DNA from: Geoalkalibacter halelectricus
Lineage (GTDB): Bacteria > Desulfobacterota > Desulfuromonadia > Desulfuromonadales > Geoalkalibacteraceae
DNA length: 64,000 bases
Assembly (NCBI RefSeq): GCF_025263685.1
Contig: NZ_CP092109.1
Coordinates: forward strand, 3,597,001-3,661,000
Direction of reading: 5' to 3'
In this document: positions 5,890-19,900 of the stretch, in pieces
Layout: every line of letters begins with the position of its first letter
Numbering within the stretch: position 1 is the stretch's first letter
The notes under the pieces: generated by a model
What the model was told of the DNA's origin: nothing
Databases searched by the model: none
Seen by the model: the letters and a program-made list of their open reading frames with translations, nothing else
Translations under genes and position numbers: made by a program

Positions 5890-7028
5890 GCGAAAGGTCA
5901 AACAAGGTTTATGAAAATCGGACGATGAAAGTGAAAAAAGCTGATTTTTCACAAAATATACTTGAAGTGTGTCTCATTTCGCCGTTTCCGCCGCCCTTCG
6001 GCGGCATGGCGATTCAGGCTGAGAAGGTTGCCGATCTGCTGCGCGAGCAGGGCTGCGATGTCGTCGAGGTGCGCACCAATGCGTCCAACGGTCATGACCA
6101 TGTGTTCTCTCGAGTGCCTGGGGTGCGTTCCATCATCAACCTGGTGCGGTTTCTGCGCGACCTTGACGGCGCTTTGCGCAAAACCGATGTGGTCTATTTT
6201 CTGACGGGTTTTTTCAATTTCTATTTCTGGGTCACGTTTCCAGCGCTTGTCCTGATTTATGTCCGTCGCAAACCCGTGGTGCTCAGTGCGCGGGGCGGAG
6301 ATGCCGCACGGTTTTTTCGGCGCTATGGCAAATTGGTAGGGCCTGTGCTGCGTCGGGCGGACAAAATCACCACGCCCTCGGGATTTTTGCGCGATGTTTT
6401 CCGCGACGCTTTCGCCCTGGAAGCGCAGGTCATCCCCAACATAGCCGACCTGGAGCAGTTTGTTTTTTGCCGACGCACCCAGTTCCGCCCCCGGTTTCTG
6501 GTGACGCGCAACCTTGAGCATATTTACGGCATCGACACTGTTTTGCGTGCCTTCGCCCTGGTGCGGGACAAGCATGCCCAGGCGACCCTCGACATCGCCG
6601 GCGGCGGCAGTCTGCGCGCGCCGTTGGAACAACTCACCACCGCTCTCGATATCGCCGATGCCGTCACCTTTCACGGCCCTGTCAATCACGAACAAATTCA
6701 ACGCCTTTATGGGCAATGCGATATCTACGTCAATGCCTCGCGGGTTGATAATTTGCCCGGTTCTCTGCTAGAGGCCTTCGCCAGTGGATTGCCAGTGGTC
6801 TCCACCCGCGCCGGCGGCATTCCCTACATGGTTGAAGAGGGCGTTACGGGGTTGCTGGTCGATGTAGATGATTACCAGGCATTGGCCGATCAGATTTTGC
6901 GCCTTCTCGACAACCCCGCGCTGGGTGCGTCCCTGGCCGATGCCGCCTACGCCGAGTCGCAGAAATACGCCCGCAAAAACGTCGCCCCGCAATTGGTGGG
7001 TTTGTTGGCGAAACACGCCCGGATGTAG
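5886..7028 (+). CDS. GT4-family glycosyltransferase
   Basis: A 380-residue GT-B glycosyltransferase. The N-terminal acceptor half begins LISPFPPPFGGMAIQAEKVADLL; the donor half carries ASRVDNLPGSLLEAFASGLPVVSTRAGGIPYMV with the usual E-x7-E arrangement. Translation probably starts at TTG 5886, overlapping the previous stop, with AAGGGG upstream; ATG 5925 is an alternative. The TAG stop at 7026-7028 is the TAG of a GTAGGGGC hairpin repeat, so the repeat defines the C-terminus (HARM). It is the last polysaccharide gene before the RAYT/hairpin cluster. Confidence 0.85.
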   Translation: MSERSNKVYENRTMKVKKADFSQNILEVCLISPFPPPFGGMAIQAEKVADLLREQGCDVVEVRTNASNGHDHVFSRVPGVRSIINLVRFLRDLDGALRKTDVVYFLTGFFNFYFWVTFPALVLIYVRRKPVVLSARGGDAARFFRRYGKLVGPVLRRADKITTPSGFLRDVFRDAFALEAQVIPNIADLEQFVFCRRTQFRPRFLVTRNLEHIYGIDTVLRAFALVRDKHAQATLDIAGGGSLRAPLEQLTTALDIADAVTFHGPVNHEQIQRLYGQCDIYVNASRVDNLPGSLLEAFASGLPVVSTRAGGIPYMVEEGVTGLLVDVDDYQALADQILRLLDNPALGASLADAAYAESQKYARKNVAPQLVGLLAKHARM

Positions 7029-7103
7029 GGGCACGGCGTGCCGTGCCCAGGCATGGGACAACGGGGAAAAGGAAAGACAGGGCACGGCACGCCGTGCCCC
7101 TAC
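7025..7103. repeat. Hairpin pair (family A) between glycosyltransferase and RAYT 1
   Basis: Two 24-base copies in opposite orientation: 7025-7048 forward and 7080-7103 reverse, each with arms GGGCACGG and CCGTGCCC around a CG-rich centre. The 31-base spacer is not repeat sequence. The pair resembles the BIME arrangement of REP elements, which are the known substrates of RAYT transposases; the RAYT gene starts 35 bases further on. Confidence 0.85.
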
Positions 7104-7137: not shown

Positions 7138-7869
7138 ATGTACCACCCCGATGTGCACAACCGGCAGTCCATCCGGTTACGGGATTTTGATTATGGCGTT
7201 GCCGGGGCGTATTTTGTGACGATTTGTACCTGGCGGCGCGAGTGTTTGTTTGGTGATGTGGTGGATGCTGATACGCGATTGAATGATGTTGGGATGGTGG
7301 TGCGGGATGAATGGTTGCGCACCCCGCAGGTACGGCCCAACGTCGTATTGGATGAAATTGTCGTGATGCCGAATCATTTTCACGCGATTTTGTGGATCAT
7401 TGACCCCGTAGGGGCACGGCGTGCCGTGCCCTTGGTGAATCACCCGAAACGTTTCAATGGACAACGCCCAATCGTAGGGGCACGACGCGCCGTGCCCGCA
7501 TTTGACCATGCCGTGGCCTGTCCGAATTTGGCGTTGCAAAACCAGGGTACGGGGCCACGAAACCAAAGCACGTTGTCGCAAAACCAGGGTACGGTGTTAC
7601 GGAGCCAGGGCACGGCACGCCGTGCCCCTACGGTCGAAAAATTCGGGCGGCCCGTTGCGGGTTCTTTGGCGACCATTGTCCGATCATTCAAATCCGCCGC
7701 CACAAAACGCATCAACGCATTGCGCGACAATCCGGGTTGTCCGGTATGGCAACGCAATTATTACGAACACGTGATCCGCGGCGAACGGGATTTGTACGCG
7801 ATCCGGAAATACATCACCGACAACCCGACGCAATGGGAATTGGACACCAACCATCCATCGCGGATTTAA
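7138..7869 (+). CDS. REP-associated tyrosine transposase (RAYT/TnpA_REP), copy 1
   Basis: A 243-residue single-strand DNA transposase of the Y1 HUH class. The HUH motif is VMPNHFHAI (H80, H82) and the catalytic Tyr is in WQRNYYEHVIRG (Y208 or Y209). AGGAGG precedes ATG 7138. Between these two core motifs, residues 91-165 are largely made of translated repeat: VGARRAVP at 91-98 and 113-120 and GTARRAPT at 158-165 are hairpin copies in frame, and residues 134-161 are four 7-residue units of the QNQGTVL type. The catalytic blocks look intact, so it may be active. It probably mobilises the surrounding hairpins. Confidence 0.85.
   Translation: MYHPDVHNRQSIRLRDFDYGVAGAYFVTICTWRRECLFGDVVDADTRLNDVGMVVRDEWLRTPQVRPNVVLDEIVVMPNHFHAILWIIDPVGARRAVPLVNHPKRFNGQRPIVGARRAVPAFDHAVACPNLALQNQGTGPRNQSTLSQNQGTVLRSQGTARRAPTVEKFGRPVAGSLATIVRSFKSAATKRINALRDNPGCPVWQRNYYEHVIRGERDLYAIRKYITDNPTQWELDTNHPSRI
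7408..7631. repeat. Three hairpin copies inside RAYT 1
   Basis: Copies at 7408-7431 (forward), 7474-7497 (forward, with ACGACGCGCCGT centre) and 7608-7631 (reverse). Each is 24 bases, a multiple of three, and contains no stop in the frame used, so the transposase frame stays open. The forward copies read VGARRAVP and the reverse copy reads GTARRAPT. Confidence 0.9.
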
Positions 7870-7882
7870 CGGGTGAAATATC

Positions 7883-7966
7883 GTAGGGGCACGGCGTGCC
7901 GTGCCCTGGGTTGAATCAAACCATCGCAACAGGAAAGGGCCAGGGCGCACATCGGTGCGCCCCTAC
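7883..7966. repeat. Hairpin copies downstream of RAYT 1
   Basis: A forward GCACGG-type copy at 7883-7906 and a reverse GCGCACC-type copy at 7943-7966. The stretch from about 7907 to 7980, including the spacer TGAATCAAACCATCGCAAC, recurs almost identically at 9511-9590, so a larger block has been duplicated here. Confidence 0.85.
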
Positions 7967-8006
7967 GAATATATGGACCGGTGCCGTCGGGACGGCTCAG
8001 GATCAC

Positions 8007-8093
8007 GATTGGCGGGTTGTCTATCTCGTAAAGGAAGAGGCTCTGTTGATTGCAGTCGTGCGAATCGCATCACGGGGAGATGTTTATCGATGA
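8007..8093 (+). pseudogene. RelE/ParE-family toxin, C-terminal remnant
   Basis: The frame reads DWRVVYLVKEEALLIAVVRIASRGDVYR then stop. It aligns well with the last third of the intact RelE-type toxin at 17801-18067 (SYRVVYEINETEILVLILRVSHRKDVYR). The preceding two thirds of the toxin are missing and are replaced by hairpin-repeat DNA ending at 7966. The TGA overlaps the antitoxin ATG in the ATGA arrangement typical of toxin-first TA operons. The fragment lacks the toxin core and should be inactive. Confidence 0.75.
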
Positions 8094-8464
8094 AAGCACA
8101 GATTATCGAAAAAAACGGTAAGCCGGAATACGCCGTCATTCCCTATGAAGATTACCTTCGAATGCTTGCGCAAATTGAGGATAAGGTTGATGCACAGGCC
8201 GTTGCTGAATTTCACGAAAACTATGTCGCCGGCCGCGAACAGCTTGTCCCCGCCGAAATTCTCCGGCGCGAGCTTGAGGGTGAATCGCCCATTAAACTTT
8301 GGCGTGAGCATCGTGGCTTGATTCAGCAGGAACTCGCCGACAGGGTTGGTATCAGCAAGCCGTATCTCTCCCAGATCGAGTCCGGAAAGCGTCAAGGTAC
8401 CATAGAAACCCTTTCTGCCATTGCTCGCGCACTTGATGTGTCGTTGGAATTGCTGACTGATTAA
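8090..8464 (+). CDS. XRE-family helix-turn-helix antitoxin (HigA-like)
   Basis: A 124-residue protein with a C-terminal XRE helix-turn-helix (RGLIQQELADRVGISKPYLSQIESGKRQ, residues ~75-102) and an N-terminal segment beginning MKAQIIEKNGKPEYAVIPYEDY that resembles the short extension of some TA antitoxins. It should bind DNA and neutralise the toxin that overlaps its start. GGGGAG lies about 9 bases upstream of ATG 8090. The partner toxin is only a remnant, so this is an orphan antitoxin that may survive as a regulator or as protection against related toxins (inference). Confidence 0.75.
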   Translation: MKAQIIEKNGKPEYAVIPYEDYLRMLAQIEDKVDAQAVAEFHENYVAGREQLVPAEILRRELEGESPIKLWREHRGLIQQELADRVGISKPYLSQIESGKRQGTIETLSAIARALDVSLELLTD

Positions 8465-8475
8465 GGGCGACGCAA

Positions 8476-8499
8476 GGGCACGGCACGCCGTGCCCTTGC
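8476..8499 (-). repeat. Reverse hairpin upstream of RAYT 2
   Basis: A reverse GCACGG-type copy ending CCCTTGC instead of CCCCTAC. The following 26 bases, through the AGGAGG ribosome-binding site, match the leader of RAYT 1 (7104-7129), so hairpin, leader and gene were duplicated together. Confidence 0.85.
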
Positions 8500-8533
8500 G
8501 TTATGCATTTAATGTTATTCAGGAGGGGAACCC

Positions 8534-9244
8534 ATGCACAACCCCGGTGCGCACAACCGGCAATCCATCTGGTTGCGGGATTTCGATTATGCCGGCACCG
8601 GCGGGTATTTCGTAACGGTGTGCACCTGGCGGCGCGAATATTTGTTTGGAGATGTGGTGGATGGTGATATGCGGTTGAATGATGTTGGGATGGTGGTGCG
8701 GGACCAATGGTTGCGCACCCCGCAAATTCGCACCAATGTTGCATTGGATGAATTTGTCGTGATGCCGAATCATTTTCACGCGATTATGTGGATCATTGAC
8801 CCCGTAGGGGCACGGCGTGCCGTGCCCTTGGTGAATCACCCGAAACGTTTCAATGGACAACGCCCACCCGTAGGGGCACGGCGTGCCGTGCCCGCATTTG
8901 ACCATGCCGTGGTTTGTCCAAATATCGCGTCGCAAAACCAGGGCACGGTGTCGCAAAACCAGGGTACGGTGTTGCGGAGCCAGGGCACGGCACGCCGTGC
9001 CCCTACGGTCGAAAAATTCGGGCGGCCCGTTGCGGGTTCTTTGGCGACCATTGTCCGATCATTCAAATCCGCCGCCACCAAACGCATCAACACATTGCGC
9101 GGCAATCCTGGTTCTCCGGTATGGCAACGCAATTATTACGAACACGTGATTCGCGGCGACCGCGATTTGTACGCGGCCCGTCAATACATCACCGACAACC
9201 CGACGAAATGGGAATTGGATATCAACCATCCAACGCAAATTTAA
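8534..9244 (+). CDS. REP-associated tyrosine transposase (RAYT/TnpA_REP), copy 2
   Basis: A 236-residue near-duplicate of the RAYT at 7138-7869. The HUH motif VMPNHFHAI (H80, H82) and the NYYEHVIRG Tyr motif are conserved. It carries the same in-frame hairpin peptides, VGARRAVP twice and GTARRAPT once, but three instead of four 7-residue QNQGTVx units, which accounts exactly for the 7-residue length difference. AGGAGG precedes ATG 8534. Both copies look intact, so duplication is recent or both are maintained. Confidence 0.85.
   Translation: MHNPGAHNRQSIWLRDFDYAGTGGYFVTVCTWRREYLFGDVVDGDMRLNDVGMVVRDQWLRTPQIRTNVALDEFVVMPNHFHAIMWIIDPVGARRAVPLVNHPKRFNGQRPPVGARRAVPAFDHAVVCPNIASQNQGTVSQNQGTVLRSQGTARRAPTVEKFGRPVAGSLATIVRSFKSAATKRINTLRGNPGSPVWQRNYYEHVIRGDRDLYAARQYITDNPTKWELDINHPTQI
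8804..9006. repeat. Three hairpin copies inside RAYT 2
   Basis: Copies at 8804-8827 and 8870-8893 (forward) and 8983-9006 (reverse), in the same codon positions as in RAYT 1. The second forward copy has the standard GGCGTGCC centre where RAYT 1 has GACGCGCC. Confidence 0.9.
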
Positions 9245-9257
9245 CGGATGAAATATC

Positions 9258-9281
9258 GAAGGGGCACGGCGTGCCGTGCCC
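9258..9281 (+). repeat. Forward hairpin downstream of RAYT 2
   Basis: A GAAGGGGC variant of the GCACGG-type hairpin, 13 bases after the RAYT 2 stop, matching the position of 7883-7906 after RAYT 1. It closes the duplicated unit 8476-9281. Confidence 0.85.
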
Positions 9282-9322: not shown

Positions 9323-9490
9323 ATGACACTCAGCGATAAGGAATTGCTTGAGCGCGATGCAAAGCGGAATATCGGAGAAGAACTGCTTGAAGCGGTTAGG
9401 GATATTAAAGCCGGCAAGATCGGCAGGGTCAGGACGGCAGCGGTTTCTCAGGTTGCTGAAGCCAGACACAGTCTTGATCTGACCACATAG
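9323..9490 (+). pseudogene. HigA/XRE-type antitoxin truncated before its DNA-binding domain
   Basis: A 55-codon frame, MTLSDKELLERDAKRNIGEE onward, then LLEAVRDIKAGKIGRVRTAA and VAEARHSLDL. This is the N-terminal arm usual in HigA-type antitoxins encoded beside RelE-like toxins, where ARxxTGLSQ normally leads into the helix-turn-helix. Here the frame stops two residues later at a TAG belonging to the hairpin at 9487-9510. The DNA-binding domain and any toxin are absent. Confidence 0.6.
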
Positions 9491-9614
9491 GGGCACGGCG
9501 TGCCGTGCCCTGGTATGAATCAAACCATCGCAACAGGAAAGGGCCAGGGCGCACATCGGTGCGCCCCTACGAAATAAATGAACCGGCGCCGTAGGGGCGC
9601 ACCGATGTGCGCCC
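9487..9614. repeat. Hairpin cluster before the 9.6 kb deacetylase
   Basis: Copies at 9487-9510 (forward, ATAGGGGC variant, GCACGG type), 9547-9570 (reverse, GCGCACC type) and 9591-9614 (forward, GCGCACC type). The last two are separated by 20 bases. The forward GCGCACC copy contains an in-frame ATG that artificially extends the next gene upstream. Confidence 0.85.
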
Positions 9615-16329: not shown

Positions 16330-17517
16330 ATGCTTAAACTGAATCTCGTTCTCATCTCCCAATTCGGCCCGCCCTCGCTTGCCTCCATCCGCAGTTGGGG
16401 GCGCCGTGGCGCGCGGGTCGGGTTGATTCAAATCGTCTCTGCAGGCGAGCCCGTCCCACGTTCGCGTTATTTAGCAGACCATATCGCCGTCACCGCTGAC
16501 GAATTTATGAGCGGTGACGGCTTTGCGCGTGCACTGACCTTCATTCGCGATTTTAACGCCGACCTGCTGCTGACCATCAGCGAACAATTCGCTTGCCTGT
16601 TGGATGAAAACCGACACCTTCTTCCGGACAACATGCAACTGATGTTTTCCGGCGCTGAAACCACCCGCGCCATCCTTTCAAAAAGCCGACAAATTGCAAT
16701 GGCTGGCAAGTTAGGCATGAAGTTGCTGCCCACCTGGGAGATCGGGGGGAGGGACTTTGATTGGTCTCAAATATCTCCAAAGGATTTTCCTCTGTGCCTG
16801 AGACCGTCAAAGCCGGGCGGGATAAGACCATCCTTCAAGGTAAGAATCGTACGATCCGCCGAGGAGCTTGACGCGTTCATCAAAACCATCGAGCAATTCA
16901 ACAGCCCGGTGCTGGCCCAGCCCTTCACCAACGTGCCTAACCTTGTCGTGCACGGTGCCCGCGGCCCGGACGGAACCGCCTGCGGGGTGGAAGGTTTCCT
17001 GGTAGAGCGTAAATTCGAGGGCGTGACGCTGACCATCCGCCCCTTTGCCATCAGCGATGAATTGCGACGACAGTGCATGGCTTTTGTGGAGGAGTTCGGA
17101 GTCATCGGCCCCTATCATTTCGAATTTCTCTATGATCCCGAGACTCAGACCCCCTGGTTTCTTGAACTGAACAGCCGCCTGGGCGGCACCACCGCCAAGG
17201 TGCTGGCTTGCGGCTATGACGAACCGGCCTGGGCGCTGAAAGCTTTTGGTTATGATGTGGACCCCGGCCGCACACGCAATGGCGTGACGGCCTCAAGTAA
17301 AAAAGCCATCGGCAAATTTCTTCTCGGTGCCCTTAAGGGTAAGCTCACCCCTCTCGATTATCCTGATGAGCCGCGCTGGAAACGTGTCGTCATGGCGCTC
17401 TACGGCTTTGCCGCCTGGCGCGATGATGTTTTTGCCTGGGATGATTTGCCGGCTGCAATGGCGCTGTATGGTTTGACATTCGACGGGAAGAAGCAGGCGG
17501 AAAAGGTTAGGACGTAG
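16330..17517 (+). CDS. ATP-grasp ligase-like protein 2
   Basis: A 395-residue ATP-grasp protein. The N-terminal domain has LISQFGPPSLASIRSWGRRG; the metal-binding end of the fold is FEFLYDPETQTPWFLELNSRLGG near residue 262-284 (E and N ligands). It is only distantly similar to the ATP-grasp protein at 13940, so two ligation steps are encoded close together. Base composition returns to GC-rich after the AT-rich glycosyltransferase. The TAG stop at 17515-17517 is part of a GTAGGGGC hairpin, so the last residues may not be original. Confidence 0.65.
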   Translation: MLKLNLVLISQFGPPSLASIRSWGRRGARVGLIQIVSAGEPVPRSRYLADHIAVTADEFMSGDGFARALTFIRDFNADLLLTISEQFACLLDENRHLLPDNMQLMFSGAETTRAILSKSRQIAMAGKLGMKLLPTWEIGGRDFDWSQISPKDFPLCLRPSKPGGIRPSFKVRIVRSAEELDAFIKTIEQFNSPVLAQPFTNVPNLVVHGARGPDGTACGVEGFLVERKFEGVTLTIRPFAISDELRRQCMAFVEEFGVIGPYHFEFLYDPETQTPWFLELNSRLGGTTAKVLACGYDEPAWALKAFGYDVDPGRTRNGVTASSKKAIGKFLLGALKGKLTPLDYPDEPRWKRVVMALYGFAAWRDDVFAWDDLPAAMALYGLTFDGKKQAEKVRT

Positions 17518-17792
17518 GGGCGAGGCGTTGCCTCGCCCTGGGCGACGCATGCGTCGCCCCTACGGGGGGTGGTTGGTTGAATTGGTGATGCGTGGGGATG
17601 ATTGACCGCAGGGGCGCACTGATGTGCGCCCTGGTTGTTATGTGTTGCTCGGTCGTTATTGATTGGATGGCGATGTAGGGGCAAGGCATGCCTTGCCCTG
17701 GGCGCAGCACGCTGCGCCCCTACGGGTGCCGGTTGGGGGAATCGGATAATGCGTGGAGATGATTGACCGTAGGGGCGCACCGATGTGCGCCC
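17514..17792. repeat. Composite hairpin array, block 1
   Basis: Six hairpins: 17514-17538 (GCGAGG arms, forward), 17540-17563 (GCGACGC, reverse), 17608-17631 (GCGCACT, forward), 17675-17698 (GCAAGGC, forward), 17700-17723 (GCGCAGC, reverse), 17769-17792 (GCGCACC, forward). Two linkers of about 43-46 bases alternate: one containing GATGCGTGGGGATGATTGAC, the other containing GGTCGTTATTGATTGGATGG. Forward-reverse pairs abut with one base between them. Confidence 0.9.
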
Positions 17793-17800
17793 TGGTTGTC

Positions 17801-18067
17801 TTAGGTGCGTTTGCCGCGATAGACATCCTTGCGGTGGGAAACACGCAGAATCAGGACGAGGATTTCTGTTTCATTGATTTCGTAAACGACTCTGTAAGAC
17901 CCCGCGCGAATGCGGCGCAGGCCCGAGAGGTCGCCTTTGAGAAGCTTGCCGACATGGGGGTTTTGGGCGAGTTGGTCGATGGCTGCAACAAGGTGCGCGC
18001 GGGTCGGCTTATCGAGACGCTGGAGTTCCTTGAGAGCGCTTTTTTTAATCCTGATCGAGTAGGGCAC
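17801..18067 (-). CDS. RelE/ParE-family toxin
   Basis: An 88-residue toxin of the RelE/ParE fold (PYSIRIKKSALKELQRLDKP, LRRIRAGSYRVVYEINE, LRVSHRKDVYRGK). RelE-type members cleave ribosome-bound mRNA and ParE-type members poison gyrase; the sequence alone does not decide. GTG 18067 is preceded by a perfect AGGAGG on the minus strand. It overlaps the antitoxin by 23 bases and ends 8 bases from a hairpin repeat. It is the only apparently complete TA pair inside the hairpin array. Confidence 0.85.
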   Translation of the reverse strand: MPYSIRIKKSALKELQRLDKPTRAHLVAAIDQLAQNPHVGKLLKGDLSGLRRIRAGSYRVVYEINETEILVLILRVSHRKDVYRGKRT

Positions 18068-18266
18068 GCCGCGCCTCCTGCCAGTCGACCGTTTCATCCG
18101 CAGGATCTCGTAATCTCTCGATGGCGAGGGTTAGATCATTGAAGTCTTCGAGGTAGGCTTCAATGGCCTGCCGGATTACATCGGCGCGGGAGCGGTGCAG
18201 GGCGTTCGCGGCGCGATCAAGCTCGTTGATCATTTCCTCGGGAAGACGTGCAGTGATTTGGGACAT
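18045..18266 (-). CDS. Ribbon-helix-helix antitoxin (RelB/ParD/CopG type)
   Basis: A 73-residue protein whose N-terminus SQITARLPEEMINELDRAAN is a ribbon-helix-helix DNA-binding domain with ALHRSRADVIRQAIEAYLED completing it; the C-terminal DPADETVDWQEARRALLDQD is the toxin-binding tail. ATG 18266 is preferred to upstream in-frame ATGs. It is the first gene of the two-gene operon and should repress its own promoter. Confidence 0.85.
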   Translation of the reverse strand: MSQITARLPEEMINELDRAANALHRSRADVIRQAIEAYLEDFNDLTLAIERLRDPADETVDWQEARRALLDQD

Positions 18267-18354
18267 GCGGCCTCCGGCATGAATGTCGTTGACATTTATT
18301 GACATTATTGCTGGGGCATGGGTGATTTGCAAGGGGGATGGTGAAACTTCATTC

Positions 18355-18582
18355 GGGCGCACAACAGTCCGCCCCTACCGATATTGGTTGGATGGCGATG
18401 TAGGGGCAAGGCATGCCTTGCCCAGGGCGACGCATGCGTCGCCCCTACGGGGGCGGTTGGGTGAATTGGTAATGCGTGAGGGTGATTTACCGTAGGGGCG
18501 CACCGACGTGCGCCCTGGTTGTTATGTGTTGCCCGGTCGTTATTGATTGGATGTGGATGTAGGGGCGACGCATGCGTCGCCC
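18355..18582. repeat. Composite hairpin array, block 2
   Basis: Five hairpins: 18355-18378 (reverse, imperfect arms), 18400-18423 (GCAAGGC, forward), 18425-18448 (GCGACGC, reverse), 18492-18515 (GCGCACC with CGACG centre, forward), 18559-18582 (GCGACGC, forward). The linkers are those of block 1 in the same order. This block fills the interval between the RelBE pair and the DUF4160/DUF2442 genes. Confidence 0.9.
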
Positions 18583-18632
18583 TTGGCGGCATTGCCGTTC
18601 CCGTGCGCGAGTCAGATAGTGTTGTAAAATGA

Positions 18633-18767
18633 ATGAGGAGGGATATTTCAAATTCAAAAACCCGATTGGTTCAGGCCTGGATTGAAATTCATCGAGATTC
18701 TTTGTTGGCTGATTGGGAATTGGCGATCAACGGCCAACCTCTTTTTCCCATCGACCCTCTGCGTTAG
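18633..18767 (+). pseudogene. DUF4160-like protein, C-terminal remnant
   Basis: A 44-codon frame beginning ATG 18633, ending LVQAWIEIHRDSLLADWELA then INGQPLFPIDPLR. This is the conserved C-terminus of DUF4160 proteins, which usually have another ~45 residues in front and are encoded immediately before DUF2442. The missing front lies where hairpin DNA ends (18582), leaving about 50 bases of unassigned sequence between them. Whether the fragment is translated is unknown. The match to DUF4160 is from memory of the family. Confidence 0.6.
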
Positions 18768-18775
18768 GAGGTTTT

Positions 18776-19036
18776 ATGGAATCAGTGATCCGGGTTGTTG
18801 CACGTGATGATTTTCATTTGGAATTATGGTTCAGAAATGGAGAACATCGTATTTTTGATGCCCGTCCCTATTTGGATCGGGGTGTGTTCCAGCGATTAAA
18901 GAATGTTTCCTTGTTCAAGCAGGCGTATGTTGCCATGGACACGGTTTGTTGGCCTGGTGATCTGGATATGGCACCGGAAACCCTCTATGACCGGTCAGTG
19001 TCGGTAAGTCGTAGCGAAAAACATGCGTGTTGTTGA
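18776..19036 (+). CDS. DUF2442-family small protein
   Basis: An 86-residue DUF2442 protein: VIRVVARDDFHLELWFRNGE near the start and CWPGDLDMAPETLYDRS near the end, the family signature. ATG 18776 has a perfect AGGAGG 6 bases upstream and follows the DUF4160 remnant by 8 bases. DUF4160/DUF2442 pairs are suspected to be TA-like modules, but the function is unproven. The tail SVSVSRSEKHACC is atypical, and a hairpin begins 8 bases after the stop. Confidence 0.75.
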   Translation: MESVIRVVARDDFHLELWFRNGEHRIFDARPYLDRGVFQRLKNVSLFKQAYVAMDTVCWPGDLDMAPETLYDRSVSVSRSEKHACC

Positions 19037-19043
19037 TTGTGGC

Positions 19044-19220
19044 GTAGGGGCGAGGCGGTGCCTCGCCCTGGGCGACCCAGCGAGTCGCCCCTACGGGGGA
19101 TGGTTGTGTAAATTGGTAATGCGTGGTGATGATTGACCGTAGGGGCGCAGCATGCTGCGCCCAGGTTGTCATGCGTCGCCCGGTCGTATCTGGTTGGATG
19201 GCGATGTAGGGGCGGGGCGG
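19044..19220. repeat. Composite hairpin array, block 3
   Basis: Hairpins at 19044-19068 (GCGAGG, forward), 19070-19094 (GCGAC with CAGC centre, reverse), 19139-19162 (GCGCAGC, forward) and a truncated forward copy starting at 19206 that loses its second arm after GGGGCGGGGCGG. The truncation point is where the HepT-like remnant on the minus strand ends. Confidence 0.85.
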
Positions 19221-19221
19221 C

Positions 19222-19278
19222 TCAGGGGTGGAATGTCTTGCTTGACAGTATCAGATAGACGCAATCATCGCGTCTCAT
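19222..19278 (-). pseudogene. Possible HepT (DUF86) remnant
   Basis: An 18-codon frame starts at ATG 19278 in an ATGA overlap with the nucleotidyltransferase stop, exactly where the HepT toxin normally starts in MntA/HepT operons. It reads MRRDDCVYLILSSKTFHP and stops. The first nine residues resemble HepT N-termini; the rest does not, and a truncated hairpin follows at once. The call rests mainly on position, so it is tentative. Confidence 0.4.
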
Positions 19279-19559
19279 TGGTAGATAACCCGCATTTCGG
19301 CTTTGATGCGGTCTATGAGGCGGGGGCTGATAGCGGCTTCGGTGAGTAAGTCGACGTGAATTCCTAAGGCTTCGCTTAATTCCCGTTGGATTTTGACCAG
19401 GGTGAGGAAACTTTTGCGATTTTTGAAATCCACCAGAAGGTCAAGGTCGCTGTCCGGGCCGGCCTCGCCGCGGGCATGTGAGCCGAAAATGCCGATTCGG
19501 GCGGCATCATGATTTTTCAAGAGGGTGATGAGGGTGGATTCCATATCCTTGGATATCAT
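19275..19559 (-). CDS. MNT-domain nucleotidyltransferase (MntA-like antitoxin)
   Basis: A 94-residue minimal nucleotidyltransferase. The signature GIFGSHARGEAGPDSDLDLL (residues ~22-41) has the GS motif and both metal Asp of the DxD pair. In MntA/HepT modules such enzymes AMPylate and silence the HEPN toxin. Here the partner is reduced to a possible remnant, so this is an orphan antitoxin. It lies on the minus strand between blocks 3 and 4 of the hairpin array. Confidence 0.8.
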   Translation of the reverse strand: MISKDMESTLITLLKNHDAARIGIFGSHARGEAGPDSDLDLLVDFKNRKSFLTLVKIQRELSEALGIHVDLLTEAAISPRLIDRIKAEMRVIYQ

Positions 19560-19627
19560 GGTTGCTCCTGATTTTACGGCACTGTTTGGATGCTATCAAA
19601 AGACATGGCATGAATCAAAACAAAACC

Positions 19628-19872
19628 GGGCGCAGCACGCTGCGCCCCTACGGGTTCCGGTTGGGTGAATCGGTAATGCGTGGGGATGATGGAACGTAGG
19701 GGCGCACCGGTGTGCGCCCTGGTTGTCATGCGTTGCCGGTCGATGTCGATTGGATGGCGGCGTAGGGTCAAGGCATGCCTTGCCCAGGGCGACGCATGCG
19801 TCGTCCCTACGGGGCGGCATTTGCGGGAATTCGCGTTTTTGTTAAGGTGTAGGGGCGCACCGACGTGCTCCC
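19628..19872. repeat. Composite hairpin array, block 4
   Basis: Hairpins at 19628-19651 (GCGCAGC, reverse), 19696-19719 (GCGCACC with CCGGTG centre, forward), 19762-19785 (GTCAAGGC, forward), 19787-19810 (GCGACGC, reverse), 19849-19872 (GCGCACC, forward, arm ending GTGCTCCC). The same two linkers separate them. It accounts for most of the gene-free stretch 19560-19900. Confidence 0.9.
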
Positions 19873-19900
19873 AATCATTTCCCGCCATTCAGAGGCGCTC

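Follow-up and report, generated by a model that had tools for sequence, protein, structure and literature searches.

In-frame REP hairpins within two RAYT transposase genes of Geoalkalibacter halelectricus and their match to a presumed DNA-reading helix

Two RAYT genes with hairpins in frame

We analysed a window of 64,000 nucleotides (nt) from Geoalkalibacter halelectricus (GCF_025263685.1, contig NZ_CP092109.1, positions 3,597,001-3,661,000 of the forward strand), in which two genes for RAYT transposases (TnpA_REP), RAYT1 and RAYT2, each carry three 24-nt hairpins with a GTAG tag, in the order +,+,- and in frame, between the motifs MPNHFH and WQRNYYEH (Table 1). These hairpins are repetitive extragenic palindromes (REPs) placed within coding sequence; they are probably the substrate of the enzyme whose gene they sit in, and among relatives their stems vary together with the presumed DNA-reading helix of the protein. 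An earlier note on this DNA had described the arrangement correctly: the six hairpins lie at 7408-7631 and 8804-9006, all are free of stops, with the forward translation VGARRAVP and the reverse one GTARRAPT, both reading frames are open, and the catalytic blocks are kept. Five of the six are the same exact 24-mer, while hairpin 2 of RAYT1 bears two changes, both synonymous, and folds as single-stranded DNA at -8.2 instead of -10.1 kcal/mol. GTAG-tagged REPs also stand in the gene flanks, as expected of RAYT/TnpA_REP genes.

The genome holds 24 exact copies of the 21-nt hairpin, and a reversed-pattern control gave none, even with up to three mismatches, which rules out a chance origin. RAYT1 and RAYT2 are paralogues (core nonsynonymous divergence dN 0.087, synonymous divergence dS 0.262), and a third, broken RAYT copy elsewhere in the genome has the identical +,+,- set; the hairpin sets are therefore not independent insertions.

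In the structural model of RAYT1, the predicted local distance difference test score (pLDDT) exceeds 90 over most of the core and falls below 50 at residues 92-106 and 108-164, within an 89-residue loop between a strand (80-87) and helix C (177-196); the linker is thus predicted to be disordered. The same structural elements are joined by a loop of only 11 residues in L079, a relative without the tag. Foldseek aligned the model with the E. coli TnpA_REP structure 4er8 (E 6.9e-5), and VIA-align gave Z 11.9 over 126 residues at a root-mean-square deviation of 3.2 and 24% identity, tied with IS608 chains. H80, H82 and Y208 are invariant among 47 aligned relatives, in keeping with an HUH enzyme that has a single, putatively catalytic tyrosine in the WQxxYY block.

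Core dN/dS is 0.33 between RAYT1 and RAYT2, 0.19 and 0.24 between these genes and L063, their closest intact relative, 0.09-0.36 in other intact pairs and 0.44 against the broken copy. The genes have therefore been kept as coding with the inserts present, and substitution patterns show the RAYT core to be under purifying selection. The suggestion of the earlier note that the linker tolerates insertion is borne out by the low pLDDT (<50) of residues 92-164 together with the core dN/dS of 0.19-0.33 in the nearest intact copies.

Table 1. Features of the RAYT locus (window coordinates)
Feature	Position	Strand	Basis
RAYT1 (TnpA_REP), 243 aa, 89-residue loop (88-176) between core strand and helix C	7138..7869	+	open reading frame (ORF), NCBIfam, fold
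RAYT2, 236 aa, RAYT1 paralogue	8534..9244	+	ORF, NCBIfam, dN/dS
RAYT1 HUH motif (His80-Phe81-His82)	7375..7383	+	H80, H82 invariant, 47 aligned relatives
RAYT1 Tyr208, presumed catalytic	7759..7761	+	Y208 invariant, 47 aligned relatives; catalysis inferred
RAYT2 HUH motif	8771..8779	+	sequence motif
RAYT2 Tyr201, presumed catalytic	9134..9136	+	sequence motif
RAYT1 in-gene REP 1, VGARRAVP	7408..7431	+	
RAYT1 in-gene REP 2, two synonymous changes, weaker stem	7474..7497	+	
RAYT1 in-gene REP 3, + strand translation GTARRAPT	7608..7631	-	
RAYT2 in-gene REP 1	8804..8827	+	
RAYT2 in-gene REP 2	8870..8893	+	
RAYT2 in-gene REP 3	8983..9006	-	
RAYT1 helix C (residues 177-196); T179, S183, S186, A187 top co-variation with REP stem	7666..7725	+	model and column scores
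Imperfect 21-nt tandem repeats, QNQGT type, RAYT1 linker; REP half-arm look by eye	7530..7614	+	
Inverted REP pair 5' of RAYT1, end 34 nt from ATG	7025-7048, 7080-7103	+, -	
REP, same stem, just 3' of RAYT1	7883..7906	+	
Hairpin, same stem, without GTAG tag, 35 nt 5' of RAYT2 ATG	8475..8498	-	
Hairpin, same stem, GAAG tag, 3' of RAYT2	9258..9281	+	
Hairpin, same stem, ATAG tag, 3' of RAYT2	9487..9510	+	

In-gene hairpins of relatives and the REPs in their flanks

Relatives were collected in two samples. A search of 136 genomes of the window's order with the N-terminal 90 residues gave 69 rows in 44 genomes (the order sample), of which 54 kept the two motifs together within a single open frame, the remainder being cut at contig ends, broken or without the motifs by the patterns used; these 54 were reduced to 48 at 85% core identity. 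An independent scan with core peptides only supplied the named sample, the best 80 of at least 572 relatives, to which all counts from this sample refer; 78 of the 80 could be parsed. The combined 132 genes yielded 122 non-redundant ones, 106 of them with an element accepted as a hairpin; 104 of these had complete halves, and 101 carried a phylum label.

Hairpins of this kind proved general among the sampled relatives, so that the view of an anecdotal insertion in two genes was rejected. In the order sample, 44 of 48 linkers contained a strict REP (+ in 39, - in 37, both in 32), with 83 strict REPs across 10,629 bp of linker, compared with 6 across 18,225 bp of core; the named sample had a GTAG hairpin in 64 of 78 linkers, both orientations in 51, and 123 REPs in 14,562 bp of linker against 19 in 31,176 bp of core. 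Record titles in the latter name Proteobacteria, Nitrospirae, Cyanobacteria, Chloroflexi, Planctomycetes, Bacteroidales, Spirochaetia, Gemmatimonadetes and several candidate phyla. GTAGGG occurs in the linker of 110 of the 122 genes, compared with a mean of 10.6 and a maximum of 20 genes in 200 codon shuffles. The earlier note had accepted that its claim would fall if close relatives without hairpins had linkers of equal length and unrelated sequence; the distance from the HUH motif to the W is shorter in untagged than in tagged genes (median 48.5, n=12, versus 65.5, n=110; P=0.0008), which does not refute the claim, although 4 of the 12 untagged genes nonetheless have 56-76 residues there.

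The + element always precedes the - element (32/32 clusters in the order sample, 51/51 in the named sample). We rejected this order (83/83) as a mark of one ancestral event: an inverted pair keeps its order however it is inserted, and the order is therefore uninformative on single versus repeated entry. The + REPs use frames 0, 1 and 2 in 35, 8 and 0 cases in the order sample and in 39, 20 and 0 in the named sample; the unused frame 2 would place TAG in frame.

When elements were picked by their ends alone (GTAGGGGC, 12 free bases, GCCC), 57 genes with 26 distinct middles had 96.8% of the five inner pairs paired, against 48.7% with shuffled 3' arms (maximum 58.9% of 2000 shuffles). From gene to gene, a given stem may be translated in another frame or from the other strand, as VGARRAVP, RGTACRAL or GTARRAPT, and the recurring unit is thus hairpin DNA and not one peptide. 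As the frames differ even in related genes, REPs appear to have entered repeatedly in places. The idea that the arginine-rich VGARRAVP/GTARRAPT peptide is itself a functional part of the protein could draw on the synonymous nature of both changes in RAYT1 hairpin 2 and on the RAYT1-RAYT2 linker dN/dS of 0.046/0.103; we give it hardly any credence, with one stem used in varied frames and strands, stems that vary freely while pairing is kept, and a region that is predicted to be disordered.

In-gene stems resemble the REPs flanking their own gene (within 800 nt) with a similarity of 0.93, as opposed to 0.59 for the flanks of other genes (0/20,000 permutations), and the own-flank match reaches at least 0.9 in 32 of 38 cases. 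Likewise, the first + and the last - stem agree at 0.82 within a gene and at 0.55 between genes (n=27; 0/20,000 permutations). Stems differing from that of RAYT1 include GACGCATGCGTC and GAAAAATTTTTC; L092 is a relative with another stem. L101 and L105 have a common unequal pair of stems at a core dS of 0.33. Because of the flank match and the co-variation with helix C described below, the in-gene hairpins are, as far as comparison of sequences can tell, probably the enzyme's own substrate, in line with the earlier note, which had spoken of the gene's own recognition hairpins.

High pairing would also be expected if template switching kept the arms of a palindrome symmetrical with the enzyme uninvolved, and tandem repeats of half-arms, present in several linkers, point to slippage at hairpins; such self-correction leaves the helix C match, the own-flank match and the GTAG tag unexplained, and we consider it highly improbable as the explanation. 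The half-arm repeats, which look as if they had arisen by slippage, were seen in coding linkers of the window (7530-7614) and of L072, L165 and L207, with the types QNQGT, NQGAM, RAGLE and GQARDAGK.

Autoregulation by binding to its own gene or transcript was raised by the earlier note. In such a scheme a RAYT would bind the hairpins in its own gene, as single-stranded DNA at the replication fork or as mRNA, and thereby limit expression or copy number. Autoregulation is consistent with the presence of a probable substrate, matching the reading helix, in the gene itself in 110 of 122 relatives, with the stable folding of the hairpins as single-stranded DNA, and with the comparison of RAYT1 and L063, where the hairpins are identical at 48/48 positions and the other linker DNA at 62/69. 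Ten gene pairs taken together show only weak extra conservation of hairpins over other linker DNA, however, with hardly any outside RAYT1-L063 (30/31 versus 47/50 in L101-L105), and RAYT1 hairpin 2 is weakened by its two synonymous changes. The same-stem hairpins about 35 nt 5' of both RAYT starts (7080-7103, 8475-8498) are a possible candidate for a translation-control site, and would be a simpler one than hairpins inside the gene. We regard autoregulation through the in-gene hairpins as unlikely.

Co-variation of the stem with helix C

Helix C is, we infer, the counterpart of the helix through which E. coli TnpA_REP touches its hairpin, an assignment made from its position, with the HUH strand before it and the WQ block after it, and from the common fold rather than from a residue-by-residue superposition. 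In the E. coli protein, helix alpha3 is described as DNA-binding, and its K82 as being in contact with the hairpin (PMC8266576); that enzyme resembles the window's RAYTs in its fold and in its GTAG-tagged single-stranded hairpin substrate (PMC8266576), and differs in that its REPs are long and bulged and in that in-gene REPs are described as unique to RAYT subclass 2.4 (PMC6006769).

MAFFT alignments of 104 genes were used, in which the 36 columns before WQRN contain helix C. The nearest neighbour of a gene by this segment has a stem similarity of 0.89 (at least 0.8 in 85/104; permuted mean 0.54, maximum 0.60). Choosing neighbours by the initial half of the N-terminal core gives 0.56, a value inside the permuted range, and choosing them by the C-terminal tail gives 0.60, level with the highest permuted value. 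Partial Mantel correlations agree: r is 0.43 for helix C and stem given the N half (0/1000) and -0.02 for N half and stem given helix C (689/1000). The columns with the strongest co-variation correspond to RAYT1 residues 179, 187, 186 and 183, which are located on one face of the helix, and the mean z is 4.8 for the helix segment, 0.8 for the N half and 0.2 for the tail.

The association also extends across phyla. For nearest neighbours in another phylum (n=101), stem similarity is 0.78 by helix C (at least 0.8 in 52/101), 0.63 by the N half, 0.54 by the tail and 0.53 at random. The stem GGTTCGCGAACC occurs with the helix LGRLIGAFKTVS in Nitrospirota, Chloroflexota, a cyanobacterium, Calditrichota and the window's own order. 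An exchange of modules at the linker, in which the C half would follow the stem and the N half would not, was rejected on the MAFFT alignments: parts of the N half correlate at only 0.07 with each other and the N half with helix C at 0.18, so that a boundary at the linker is unsupported and the helix C-stem link alone is left standing.

Probable cognate REPs and their proposed inheritance with the gene

In-frame REPs that leave the frame undisturbed and generally lie between HuH and Y are described as a unique feature of tnpA_REP genes of subclass 2.4 by Quentin et al. 2018 (PMC6006769), who mention their predominance there and equate the subclass with RAYT group 4 of Bertels 2017. That paper gives this subclass a long and variable HuH-to-Y distance (median 88 aa); the second His and the Tyr lie 126 aa apart in RAYT1 and 119 aa apart in RAYT2. 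The window genes and this subclass share the HUH-Y1 architecture with in-frame REPs between HuH and Y and REPs in the flanks, an insert of variable size that separates strand beta3 from helix alphaC, and canonical GGG/CCC-based and double-foot REPs, and from that description we see no difference in kind (PMC6006769). In-gene REPs are thus published for subclass 2.4, the window genes are therefore not new in kind, and we rejected a reading of them as a new phenomenon; that the hairpins are a feature of a whole published subclass is something the earlier note had not foreseen. New relative to the subclass 2.4 description is, so far as sequence comparison suggests, the match of the in-gene hairpin to the presumed reading part of the protein. 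We found no helix C-stem association in the open-licence RAYT literature searched, although its absence there is not proven, and the accessible text of PMC6006769 did not yield an in-gene REP-flank match, kept pairing in coding sequence or a helix C-stem link.

We consider it probable that RAYT1 and RAYT2 are RAYTs of the subclass 2.4 type whose linker hairpins are cognate REPs, inserted in cis into a loop that tolerates them and inherited from then on. The RAYT would move or copy REPs as single-stranded DNA near its own gene; a REP landing within the gene would persist only where it hit the loop and kept the frame, never in the TAG frame; it would then be inherited with the gene, as the common stems of L101 and L105 suggest, with repeated entry in places; and in-gene REPs and helix C would change together. 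Passive retention of the in-gene REPs is our default assumption.

Several observations weigh against this reading. In L063, the linker REPs are of the ACGGC type and those upstream of the GACCC type, and the criteria used reveal no GTAG hairpin in 14 of the 78 named genes. The helix C-stem statistics are tree-free and ignore kinship among the genes; the latter half of the N core also gives a stem similarity of 0.73 against a permuted maximum of 0.59, and N-half residues 62 and 66 likewise reach z of about 10, so that helix C is not the sole associated part. RAYT1 and RAYT2 score 62.2 and 65.6 bits with NCBIfam NF047646 (REP_Tyr_transpos), in two stretches flanking the linker and below the 80-bit cut-off, which is a criterion of the library and not a biological one, and neither protein matched Pfam up to E 0.001. 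Finally, the enzyme-driven insertion of REPs in cis is itself a step that we infer.

The distribution of the hairpins bears on whether they serve as a source of REPs for the genome. A REPIN is an inverted REP pair, and the in-gene REPs, + then -, are one by orientation; they differ from REPINs in lying inside coding sequence and in a stem that is not dispersed through the genome. Of the 24 exact 21-mers in the 4.13 Mb genome, 10 belong to the cluster within the window and 13 to another at 3927-3931 kb (the second cluster), and one lies alone. The second cluster contains the third RAYT with its +,+,- linker, split by an insertion with an IS3-type look by eye only, and two further stretches resembling decayed linkers. 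The genome has RAYT-like loci elsewhere, and a scan of seven of them (2.0-2.6 kb of DNA each) gave no GTAGGGGC. The RAYT1 protein had three matches in 72,556 plasmid records.

A resident master copy, that is, an in-gene inverted pair selected to keep enzyme and substrate matched across hosts and to seed the REPs of the genome, would fit the joint travel of stem and helix C across phylum labels seen with GGTTCGCGAACC and LGRLIGAFKTVS, as well as the assignment, by eye, of 16 of the 24 exact hairpins to RAYT linkers or linker-like remnants. Passive co-inheritance predicts the identical pattern, and as 23 of the 24 copies are confined to two RAYT clusters, signs of seeding are scant; we therefore judge a master copy clearly unlikely. 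The broader proposal that the in-gene inverted pair is a selected working part, a heritable substrate copy co-evolving with helix C, seems to us rather unlikely. If true, the match of enzyme and substrate would be kept on a change of host, the enzyme would act on its own gene in single-stranded form, and the gene would encode the reader together with the word that it reads, so that the recognition code could be read from gene sequences alone.

Through its in-gene REPs, each RAYT gene becomes a labelled pair of an enzyme and its presumed substrate. Stem contacts of RAYTs with palindromic REPs are called only speculative without structures in PMC8266576, a statement made for group 3, and the RAYT-stem pairs listed here turn the question of palindromic-stem recognition into testable swaps. 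Runs resembling VGARRAVP or GTARRAPT in annotated proteins can furthermore be explained as REP translations. Rickettsia palindromic elements and other intragenic REPs are similar in being palindromes in frame in protein genes, but occur, according to PMC3733652, in many unrelated genes, whereas the host gene in the window encodes the element's presumed enzyme.

GTAG REPs with other stems are dispersed over the genome (161 pattern matches versus 32 for the reversed control). They stand in inverted, often unlike pairs, such as GCACCGATGTGC with GGACTGCGTCC, at 17494-19875 of the window and genome-wide; none of the RAYT loci that were read here in the genome has a linker with stems of these types, and the elements may have been left by RAYTs since lost. 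The third RAYT copy (L052 2138-4555; G000 3928.6-3931.1 kb) has linker-like arrays on either side, one with four + and two - elements. The RAYT frame of L087 (G066 C64) extends far past the usual end, to 840 codons, through more REP-like repeats. In the window, a small helix-turn-helix gene with the look of an antitoxin by eye lies between RAYT1 and RAYT2 (8091-8464), and a short ORF (9324-9490) follows 3' of RAYT2.

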